Shown: in pieces, positions 20,293 to 22,707 of the stretch
Position numbering within the stretch: position 1 is the first letter of the stretch
How the letters are laid out: each line of letters starts with the position of its first letter
Assembly: GCA_947500775.1 (NCBI GenBank)
Contig: CANMTD010000002.1
Coordinates: 1-64,000, forward strand
DNA: 64,000 nucleotides
Source: an uncultured Paracoccaceae bacterium
Lineage (GTDB): Bacteria; Pseudomonadota; Alphaproteobacteria; Rhodobacterales; Rhodobacteraceae
Direction: 5' to 3'
Made by a program: the position numbers and the translations under genes
Notes under the pieces: model-generated
What the model was told of the DNA's origin: nothing
What the model saw: the letters and a program-made list of their open reading frames with translations, nothing else
Databases searched by the model: none

Positions 20293-20306
20293 TTGATGTC
20301 GATCAA
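20293..20306. promoter_or_regulatory. FNR-type box
   Basis: TTGAT-GTCG-ATCAA is a perfect match to the FNR/FnrL consensus TTGAT-N4-ATCAA. Its centre is about 71 nt before the start of the small secreted protein. A TATTAT (20332-20337) placed about 33 nt beyond the centre fits the -10 of a class II activated promoter. NO-responsive Dnr/NnrR regulators recognise very similar sites, so the signal could be low oxygen or nitric oxide. Confidence 0.7.
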
Positions 20307-20336
20307 CTCCATTTTGGCCGGTTCTGTTAACTATTA

Positions 20337-20351
20337 TTAACGTAAGGTTAA
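20337..20351. promoter_or_regulatory. CtrA-like box
   Basis: TTAA-CGTAAGG-TTAA fits the TTAA-N7-TTAA form of the alphaproteobacterial CtrA site. It lies immediately downstream of the putative -10 and just before the SD of the 20371 gene. In such an A/T-rich stretch a chance match is possible. Confidence 0.35.
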
Positions 20352-20370
20352 TTATTTTTAGGAGCTTGAT

Positions 20371-20559
20371 ATGAAAAATGGGATTTTGGGGCTGATTGTG
20401 GCCGCAGCATTCGTTGCAAACCCGGTTTTTGCGGAAGCGACATCTGACATGCGGGACTCGGTTGTGACCACCGAAGTTGATCACGGCGGCGGGTGCCGAA
20501 AAGATTCCCCCCGGGGAAAATGTTGCCACGCTGGATCAAAGCCGTACCACTGCCACTAA
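20371..20559 (+). CDS. Small secreted Cys/His-rich protein
   Basis: The protein has 62 residues from ATG 20371 with SD AGGAG. The signal peptide GILGLIVAAAFVANPVFA leaves a mature peptide of about 40 residues ending HGGGCRKDSPRGKCCHAGSKPYHCH. Three Cys, then Cys-His, plus a YHCH ending resemble short YHYH-like metal or haem-binding motifs, but I cannot assign a family. An FNR-type box and a CtrA-like box lie in its promoter, which suggests production under low oxygen or NO. It stands alone between DUF2189 and the bactofilin operon. Confidence 0.7.
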   Translation: MKNGILGLIVAAAFVANPVFAEATSDMRDSVVTTEVDHGGGCRKDSPRGKCCHAGSKPYHCH

Positions 20560-20637: not shown

Positions 20638-20665
20638 AAGGGCATCGCCTTTGGACGATGCCCTT
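20638..20665. terminator. Terminator between the small secreted gene and bactofilin
   Basis: A 10-bp perfect stem AAGGGCATCG/CGATGCCCTT with an 8-nt loop. It is 22 nt past the bactofilin stop on the minus strand, followed there by a T-rich run, and ends in TTTC on the plus strand. It can act in both directions. Confidence 0.75.
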
Positions 20666-20687: not shown

Positions 20688-21224
20688 TCAGGCCTTGGGC
20701 GTTGCCGGTGCGGTGGCCTGCGCTTTGGCGGCAGGGGCGGCGGATTGGGGCAGGGGTGCCCGCGGTTTGCCGTTGCTCAGCGGGTCGTCCTGACGCTGAA
20801 CCGAGCCTTCGAAATGCGCGCCGCTTTCGATTGCGATGGTCTTGTGGATGATGTCGCCTTCGACCCGCGCGGTCGAGGTCAGGCGGACCTTCAGGCCGCG
20901 CACCCGACCGATGACACGACCGTTGACCACCACATCGTCGGCCACAACTTCGCCCTTGATCGTGGCGCCTTCGCCGACGGTCAGAAGATGGGCGCGAATG
21001 TCACCTTCGACAACGCCTTCAACCTGAATATCGCCGGTGGTTTTCAGATTGCCGGTCACTGTCAGATCGGGGGACAATGTGGATGCGGGCGGTTTTGCTT
21101 TGGGTGTTGGTGTCGGCATGTCACTCATTGGTTTCGCCGCCGCAGAGGCGTCGGGCATTGCTGTTTTGTCGGCTTCGCCCGCTTGTTTCGGACCGGGCTC
21201 GTTGATCCTGCTTTTAGAAAACAT
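20688..21224 (-). CDS. Bactofilin (polymer-forming cytoskeletal protein)
   Basis: The protein has 178 residues. A Pro/Lys-rich disordered N-terminus leads into the bactofilin (DUF583) beta-helix core at about residues 50-145 (SPDLTVTGNLKTTGDIQVEG, VVADDVVVNGRVIGRVRG, TARVEGDIIHKTIAIESGAHFEG). A Pro/Ala-rich tail follows. Bactofilins self-assemble into membrane-linked filaments and recruit peptidoglycan enzymes. The start overlaps the end of the M23 peptidase gene by 11 nt, the usual bactofilin/M23 partnership, so both probably act on cell shape. Confidence 0.93.
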   Translation of the reverse strand: MFSKSRINEPGPKQAGEADKTAMPDASAAAKPMSDMPTPTPKAKPPASTLSPDLTVTGNLKTTGDIQVEGVVEGDIRAHLLTVGEGATIKGEVVADDVVVNGRVIGRVRGLKVRLTSTARVEGDIIHKTIAIESGAHFEGSVQRQDDPLSNGKPRAPLPQSAAPAAKAQATAPATPKA

Positions 21225-22536
21225 CTCTTGCTGCCTTGATGTATGTCATCGGGTTGACGGGTTTGCCCCCTACACGCACTTCATAGTGCAGATGCGTTCC
21301 GGTGGAACGGCCAGAATTCCCCATATCACCGATCCGCTCGCCGCGCGAGACCCTTTGCCCAACTTTCACGCGGATTTTAGACATATGGGCATATCGTGTC
21401 TCGATTCCGAACTGATGCTGGATTTTCACCAGCCGCCCATATCCCGACTGCCAGTCCGCATGGATCACCACGCCATCCGCCGTCGAAAAGATCGGCGTGC
21501 CATAAGAGGCCGCGAAATCGGTGCCGTTGTGCATCCGTCCCCAGCGCGGGCCAAAGCCGCTGGTATAACGGAACGAGGATTTGACCGGGATGCTGAACGG
21601 CGCCTTCTGTGCCGCGATCCGGTACAGGTTCATCCGGTCCAGCCCTTCAAGAATGCTGTTGGCGCGCATCTGATCGGCGCCGGGTTCGCGCCCCTTGGTC
21701 GAAAACGACAGCGGTGTCAGCGGGCCGCCCTGACCGGAATAGCCGCGGCGCACCTCGTCGATCAGCCGGTCCGGCGGCAGGCCCGCGGCGCGGAACATCT
21801 TGTCCAGCGGGGCGACGGACACGGTCAGCGCCTCTTCCAGCTGGGTGAAAATCTGATCGTTGCGGTCTTCGACCAGCTTGCGTTCGTAATCCAGCGCATT
21901 GGCCAGTTCAAAGGCGGCTGCGGCGTCTGAGGCGACCGTGTCGCGTTCGGTGGCGGTGGTGTTCAGTGCGGCCGACATGAAATCCAGCGTCGCGGCCAGG
22001 TCTTCGACACGGCCCGCTTCGGTATTCGTGCCACTGTCCGCTTCGGCCAGAGCGATTTCAAGCTGTCCGGCCTTGTCGGCGGCGGTATCGCGTTCCTTGA
22101 TGGTGCGGCGCAGGGTGGACTGGATCACGTCGATCCCGGTTTCCAACTCTTTGCGCCGATCCTCAGACGCCAGCAGCGACGACTGCATTTTCGAGATTTC
22201 GTCCAGCGCGAAGTTGAACCGTTCCTGCGCGGCCAGCGCTTCTTCGGCGCGCATGTCGCGTTGCTGGGCAAGATCGTTCAGCCGGGTTTCATACAGCGCC
22301 TGTTCGCGCCGGGCCTGATCACGCAGGCTGCCCGCGCCGATGTTGTCCATCAACAGGACGGCGGCGGCGACAATCGACCAGGCCACAACGGCCGCGCTGC
22401 CCACCAGTGCGGTCAGCTGGGTGGTTGAACTGAGCCGAATGAATCGGGTCTTATGTTCGGATCGAAGAAAAAGCCGTTGTTCTGGAAGATAGCGCTCAAG
22501 CGCCGTGTATAGTCTTTTCGCCAAACGCGCTGCCAC
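21214..22536 (-). CDS. Membrane-anchored M23 peptidase with coiled coil
   Basis: The frame is open to 22683, but no ATG fits. I place the start at a GTG (22536, or 22542) after ACGAGG, giving about 440 residues beginning near VAARLAKRLYTALERYLPEQ. One membrane helix (ALVGSAAVVAWSIVAAAVLLM) is followed by a long periplasmic coiled coil (about residues 80-230). The C-terminal LytM/M23 domain has metal ligands in HNGTDFA and HLHYEVR. Such enzymes cut peptidoglycan cross-links or activate amidases. It is co-transcribed with bactofilin through an 11-nt overlap. The start codon is the main uncertainty. Confidence 0.87.
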   Translation of the reverse strand: MAARLAKRLYTALERYLPEQRLFLRSEHKTRFIRLSSTTQLTALVGSAAVVAWSIVAAAVLLMDNIGAGSLRDQARREQALYETRLNDLAQQRDMRAEEALAAQERFNFALDEISKMQSSLLASEDRRKELETGIDVIQSTLRRTIKERDTAADKAGQLEIALAEADSGTNTEAGRVEDLAATLDFMSAALNTTATERDTVASDAAAAFELANALDYERKLVEDRNDQIFTQLEEALTVSVAPLDKMFRAAGLPPDRLIDEVRRGYSGQGGPLTPLSFSTKGREPGADQMRANSILEGLDRMNLYRIAAQKAPFSIPVKSSFRYTSGFGPRWGRMHNGTDFAASYGTPIFSTADGVVIHADWQSGYGRLVKIQHQFGIETRYAHMSKIRVKVGQRVSRGERIGDMGNSGRSTGTHLHYEVRVGGKPVNPMTYIKAARDVF

Positions 22537-22707
22537 TGCCACAAGCCTCGTTTCTTTCCCCAAGATGTGACCGGCGTTCCCCAACGAAACGGTCCTAGAT
22601 TGATTAACCAGACCGACGCCATGTCGCAAGTTTTTTGAGCAATTATCGAAGCTTGCCTTCTGGATTTCACATAAAACCGGCAAGAACCCGCCGATGGCGG
22701 GGGCGTT

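Follow-up and report, generated by a model that had tools for sequence, protein, structure and literature searches.

CtrA of D. shibae binds the motif 5'-TTAAC-N5-GTTAAC-3', and in this group of bacteria it controls genes for motility, gene transfer agents (GTAs), quorum sensing and c-di-GMP; cross-talk between the CtrA and FnrL (Crp/Fnr) regulons of D. shibae is documented as well (PMC7232146, in the sections drawn on here). CtrA sites with a 6-base spacing are functional in the fla2 flagellar promoters of R. sphaeroides, where transcripts begin just 12 to 33 bases ahead of the start codon. The same source, in the part used here, places CtrA full sites that activate near −35 and states that repressing CtrA half-sites in Caulobacter overlap the −10 element (PMC6180460). 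FnrL of R. capsulatus directly controls ccoN, uspA, ccpA, PPK2 and fnrL, according to the relevant section of PMC4634722.

Here we analyze a window of DNA (the whole stretch of 64,000 nucleotides) from a Rhodobacteraceae-type genome (3.97 Mb, 99% complete, 11 contigs), in which an FNR box and a CtrA-type box stand ahead of one short ORF. Sequence comparisons point to a small, Sec-exported peptide of a real, previously undescribed family with relatives in marine bacteria and a promoter of its own. Across this family, no promoter feature is more common than the CtrA-type box. An FNR box substitutes for it in a minority of relatives and joins it in the window. The types of box and both regulons are already known; new is the exported peptide family, absent from the libraries searched, that is tied to them.

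Materials and Methods

The promoter counts refer to 105 distinct promoters, 72 in a first set and 33 in a second. One of the 72 (L032) has a single upstream base, leaving 71 informative. The second set derives from 41 loci found by an alignment query, solely in genomes absent from the single-protein query set. Dropped before the counts were a false hit (L007), loci with no usable ORF (L069, L072, L075, L084, L222 and L224), a copy with an in-frame stop (L012) and 12 loci with a repeated protein (six in the first set, including L053, which repeats L012, and six in the second). Box positions are counted from the start codon; because start codons were picked by a scoring rule, the positions may be wrong for some relatives.

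Results

The original prediction for this locus described an FNR box, a TTAA-N7-TTAA box and an exported, Cys/His-rich product of 62 residues, and all of these were recovered in place (Table 1). The FNR box is the sole exact match within the window. The TTAA-N7-TTAA site is exact as well (one in the window vs. 0.06 expected) and corresponds to the CtrA motif minus its final C; a third TTAA extends it to a three-copy array at 20327–20351, in which an N6 pair overlaps the N7 pair. The ORF is preceded by a Shine-Dalgarno sequence and has relatives in many genomes. The claim that the FNR box stands at the distance for class II activation holds only approximately: the TATTAT hexamer sets the center of the box near −44.5, not −41.5. 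A sigma-70 scan at the window promoter found no promoter scoring 9/12 or better.

Table 1. Features of the peptide locus, in window coordinates
Feature	Position	Strand	Basis
FNR/FnrL box TTGATGTCGATCAA (palindrome, TTGAT-N4-ATCAA)	20293..20306	.	Exact match; FnrL encoded; same place in 6 relatives
TTAA-N6-TTAA, first two half-sites of the three-TTAA array, variant CtrA spacing	20327..20340	.	N6 in 19/105 family promoters
TATTAT, weak −10-like hexamer	20332..20337	+	Read from the letters; no support from promoter scan
CtrA-type full site TTAACGTAAGGTTAA (TTAAC-N5-GTTAA = TTAA-N7-TTAA), over the predicted transcription start	20337..20351	.	N7 in 28/105 family promoters
Shine-Dalgarno AGGAG	20360..20364	+	Read from the letters
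62-aa ORF: Sec-type signal peptide, linker of ~16 residues, core HGGGCRKDSPRGKCCHAGSKPYHCH	20371..20559	+	ORF and family alignment
Terminator-like hairpin between the peptide gene and the convergent bactofilin gene	20638..20665	−	12 pairs; shuffles average 1.3 such sites, weak alone
Bactofilin gene beside M23 peptidase with DUF5930 domain	20688..22683	−	

The neighbors of the peptide gene in the window are DUF2189 and bactofilin genes, the latter convergent with it and located beside an M23 peptidase with a DUF5930 domain. No gene adjoining the window copy recurs beside the relatives, and the most recurrent neighbor gene of the first set was found at no more than 9 of 72 loci. Neighbors resembling the spc operon (L18, L6 and S5 ribosomal proteins and SecY, as read by eye) occur in groups of three to nine relatives (L002, L017, L019, L024, L028, L029, L036, L037, L045, L059, L064, L070 and L076); they are uninformative on the function of the peptide.

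Of 394 genomes of the family, 46 had a match to the single protein used as query (E ≤ 0.001); of 390 genomes of the order, 64 in 41 of 140 genera had a match to the alignment (E ≤ 1e-6). Both counts include the genome of origin. A phylum-wide draw gave matches in 9 of 398 genomes, of which two were weak and interrupted by stops. The 37 loci from a contig collection belong mostly to Rhodobacteraceae, Stappia and Roseibium, and two are from the gammaproteobacterium Porticoccus. Further copies lie on a Sinorhizobium and a Pseudomonas plasmid with no listed gene at either, which is weak evidence because the plasmid gene table is incomplete. The presence of the peptide in Porticoccus (L066, L067) and on the Pseudomonas frederiksbergensis plasmid (L227) suggests transfer of its gene into gammaproteobacteria; these copies have no N6/N7 TTAA pair upstream. 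In Carideicomes alvinocaridis (L012/L053), an in-frame stop lies between signal peptide and core, and this copy may therefore be a decaying gene.

The exported, Cys/His-rich character holds across the whole family. Ten residues are invariant in 64 aligned sequences (H38, G40, G41, C42, C51, C52, H53, H60, C61 and H62), among them four Cys and four His, and the core H-x-G-G-C-x8-C-C-H-x(n)-H-C-H is invariant. In the shortest relatives, the signal peptide is followed directly by HGGGC...HCH. The mature peptide is predicted to comprise about 41 residues in the window and about 25 in these shortest forms.

The peptide was without a match in Pfam and had 0 matches in PHROGs and, by sequence, in the PDB; a literature search by motif words returned nothing relevant to it among the matches listed. 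Membership in DUF2946 (Pfam), the CutF-like group, was rejected, as the domain was not matched at E up to 1. The one NCBIfam match, NF045877 CopZ_Nterm_CU over residues 15–54 (E 7e-4), reached 19.5 bits, far under the curated cut-off of 190; it is probably driven by Cys composition, and a CopZ-like domain was rejected. The predicted structure was poor (pTM 0.28) and uninformative on the fold.

Judging from residue conservation, binding of a transition metal by the Cys and His residues is a plausible use of the peptide and the most likely one. Neither the window protein nor the family core contains CXXCH, which makes heme binding, originally proposed along with metal binding, unlikely and led us to reject a c-type heme protein. 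The four invariant Cys, an even number in the order C-x8-CC-x8-C within an exported peptide, would fit a disulfide-stabilized secreted signal or antimicrobial that does not bind metal, and the patchy distribution with its gammaproteobacterial copies would agree with such a role. However, the four His are as invariant as the four Cys, and the few recurrent neighbors look like ribosomal-protein and SecY genes, not like immunity or transport genes. We regard the disulfide-stabilized signal or antimicrobial as possible, though doubtful, and retain metal binding as the preferred use.

The original prediction expected both boxes to be conserved upstream of relatives, and for the TTAA box this is clearly the case. 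A TTAA pair with N6 or N7 spacing is present in 39 of the 105 promoters, leaving 66 without either. The N7 spacing occurs in 28 promoters with the consensus GTTAAC-N5-GTTAAC, which matches the D. shibae CtrA motif as given in PMC7232146. The N6 spacing occurs in 19, including two sites at −15 (L041 and L042) that straddle the Shine-Dalgarno sequence and may be accidental; in 8 of the 19, an N7 box sharing one TTAA is also present. Within the first set (100 bases per promoter), 16 of the 72 promoters contain an N6 pair and 17 an N7 pair, vs. 0.54 and 0.58, respectively, in dinucleotide shuffles of the same promoters. All other spacings from 0 to 25 were seen in zero to four promoters each, except for nine at N17, which is the end-to-end spacing of the three-copy N6+N7 array. 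Among the 33 promoters of the second set, 11 contain N7 and 3 contain N6, and no other spacing exceeds two promoters.

In terms of density, the first-set promoters hold 17 N6 and 17 N7 sites in 7,101 bases, compared to 0 and 2 in 297,836 bases of all flanks and 0 and 1 in 36,062 bases of non-coding flanks; these flanks are GC-richer than the promoters (AT 0.45 vs. 0.54), a difference in composition that the shuffles correct for. The box-bearing promoters are mostly unlike each other, with five pairs showing a similarity ratio above 0.6. Among nine relatives assigned to other families by record title, none has a TTAA box.

The N7 box starts anywhere from −26 to −80. In 20 of 28 cases, the start lies at −26 to −46, which suits repression; in eight relatives it lies at −50 to −80, and a few N7 boxes could be activating −35 sites. 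If the array in the window also activated as a −35-type CtrA site, CtrA and FnrL would both switch the gene on, from a start very near or at the start codon. The position of activating full sites and the short fla2 leaders of R. sphaeroides, both from the part of PMC6180460 cited above, speak for such an arrangement, and the boxes starting at −50 to −80 would fit it. The majority of N7 boxes start closer to the ORF, however, and a box at −35 puts the start of the transcript near or inside the ORF, which leaves the Shine-Dalgarno sequence without room. We consider an activating array unlikely and proceed with repression by CtrA as the preferred reading.

For the FNR box, conservation is narrow. 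Allowing one mismatch within 150 bases of the start codon, it was detected in 7 of 105 promoters (4 of 72 and 3 of 33) and is absent from 98; two of the seven are exact. The perfect FNR box was accordingly rejected as the main conserved feature, the conserved one being the TTAA box. All seven boxes begin at −73 to −79 (chance of four random positions within 6 bases, P about 0.0003), with the qualification that the promoters of L197 and L207 closely resemble each other and do not count as independent cases. The density in the first set was 0.38 per kb vs. 0.11 in non-coding flanks. Of the 105 promoters, only that of the window combines FNR and N6/N7 boxes; N6/N7 is lacking in the remaining six that have an FNR box. 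Two Sulfitobacter records differ in this respect, L063 having an exact FNR box and L064 a TTAA array.

The small number of exact and near-exact boxes, together with the likeness of the L197 and L207 promoters, would be compatible with a chance or recent gain of the FNR box in the window that has little effect, the gene being just a CtrA-type target. Such a gain seems improbable to us: the seven starts fall within 7 bases of each other, a closeness that four random positions would rarely reach, and the exact pattern occurs at 22 distinct positions in the 3.97-Mb genome, compared to 0 for the pattern read backwards. An FNR box that acts on the peptide gene remains our preferred reading.

Both regulators are encoded in the host genome: FnrL matches the NCBIfam equivalog NF045989 (461.8 bits, cut-off 300) and CtrA the equivalog NF045991 (432.9 bits, cut-off 350). 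An exact FNR box lies between fnrL and the adjoining hemN gene. Further exact boxes stand at ccoN/uspA (two) and at the genes for a bd oxidase, a di-heme peroxidase, a multiheme cytochrome, PPK2 and rpoD, while others lie within ORFs or ahead of genes without a family. The sites at ccoN/uspA, fnrL/hemN, the bd oxidase, the di-heme peroxidase and PPK2 match the R. capsulatus FnrL targets ccoN, uspA, fnrL, ccpA and PPK2, as given in the section of PMC4634722 used here. The proposed oxygen response is thereby supported as a prediction of FnrL control, given the encoded FnrL, the boxes at its classic targets and the equal distance at which a minority of relatives have the box. The proposed NO response was not borne out, the strong Crp/Fnr matches in the genome being FnrL and one unclassified regulator.

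TTAA-N7-TTAA occurs at 12 sites genome-wide vs. 20 in the backward control. The N6 and N7 sites listed number 20 (8 N6 and 12 N7), with backward controls of 28 and 20; by count alone there is no genome-wide enrichment, because these counts are below the controls. The window array is the only overlapping N6/N7 pair among the genome sites listed. An N6 box is present in the ctrA promoter, and N6/N7 boxes stand ahead of a cckA-like kinase gene (861 aa; the best NCBIfam matches are CckA models, under their cut-offs), an MshEN glycosyltransferase gene and a GTA-like head cluster comprising genes for terminase, portal, protease, capsid and adaptor. At the latter (L225, C2:697892-706406), TTAAC-N5-GTTAA lies about 145 bases before the first ORF, with a trigger-factor-like gene upstream. 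Other sites are inside ORFs or by genes without a known CtrA link. The ccoN-uspA intergenic region (L113, C4:134310-134385) has a TTAA-N6-TTAA alongside its two exact FNR boxes, which makes it a second locus of the host genome that combines FNR with CtrA-type boxes.

The N6 boxes (TTAAC-N4-GTTAA) could instead be targets of Dnr/NnrR-type Crp/Fnr proteins, which would make part of the family NO-responsive. The Fnr/Dnr sites of D. shibae include TTAAC-N4-GTCAA and TTGAC-N4-GTTAA, according to the part of PMC5398030 used here, and a second Crp/Fnr protein is encoded in the host genome. This protein has no match to any NCBIfam model at E up to 1e-10, however, and the N7 boxes that share a TTAA with N6 boxes, the N6 box of ctrA itself and the functional N6 CtrA sites of R. 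sphaeroides (PMC6180460, same section) all argue for CtrA. We judge Dnr/NnrR targets to be very unlikely and treat both spacings as CtrA-type. With CtrA encoded and the box fitting its motif, the cell-cycle timing originally proposed stands in part; CtrA controls motility, GTA, quorum sensing and c-di-GMP genes in this group (PMC7232146, sections as above), and "CtrA-responsive" is therefore the safer description.

Discussion

We think it reasonably probable, from the arrangement of the sequence elements, that the gene encodes an exported metal-binding or disulfide peptide and is activated by FnrL and repressed or timed by CtrA. At low oxygen, FnrL would bind its box at 20293–20306 and activate transcription from a start near 20341–20344. 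Phosphorylated CtrA (CtrA~P) would bind the TTAA array and would repress the gene or confine its expression to those cells or phases in which CtrA~P is low, as we infer from the array covering the predicted −10 and start. Cleavage of the peptide would follow ...NPVFA. In the periplasm, the mature form would use its four Cys and four His to bind a transition metal (Cu or Zn), or two disulfides would serve to position the histidines. Both the place where transcription begins and whether CtrA represses or activates are guesses, because the spacing between FNR box and TATTAT is about 3 bases off class II and no good sigma-70 promoter was found.

A more far-reaching reading, which we put forward tentatively and hold to be rather unlikely, is that of a metallo-micropeptide family within the CtrA program, whose promoter would be a site where CtrA and FnrL swap, the window being an intermediate with both boxes. 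Under this swap-site reading, the two boxes of the window promoter would mean that peptide output signals low oxygen solely where CtrA~P is scarce in the cell.

Small enough to evade annotation, the family is nevertheless conserved, and its promoter signature suffices to place it in a regulon. If this is true, an abundant group of marine bacteria gains an exported effector within its CtrA regulon, and the family would offer a compact system to watch a promoter pass between developmental and oxygen regulators.

Of the closest known systems, NF045877 CopZ_Nterm_CU shows a partial likeness to the peptide. The CutF and DUF2946 exported Cys peptides of R. capsulatus, as far as their description was used here, are alike in being small exported Cys proteins of related bacteria. 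The CutF motif is CXXXC. The motif of the window peptide differs, and its gene has the DUF2189 and bactofilin genes for neighbors and no multicopper oxidase. The FnrL regulon of Rhodobacter and Dinoroseobacter is alike in that exact TTGAT-N4-ATCAA boxes accompany FnrL and its classic targets in the genome, whereas only a small minority of the peptide's relatives have the box and FnrL control in the window is predicted from sequence. With the CtrA regulon promoters of Rhodobacterales in their published outline (TTAAC-N5-GTTAAC in D. shibae, N6 in fla2 of R. sphaeroides), box and spacing agree; the host genome likewise has boxes before ctrA, the cckA-like gene and the GTA-like head cluster. In contrast to that regulon, the target here is an undescribed exported peptide, and the usual place of the box is over the predicted start, not at −35.
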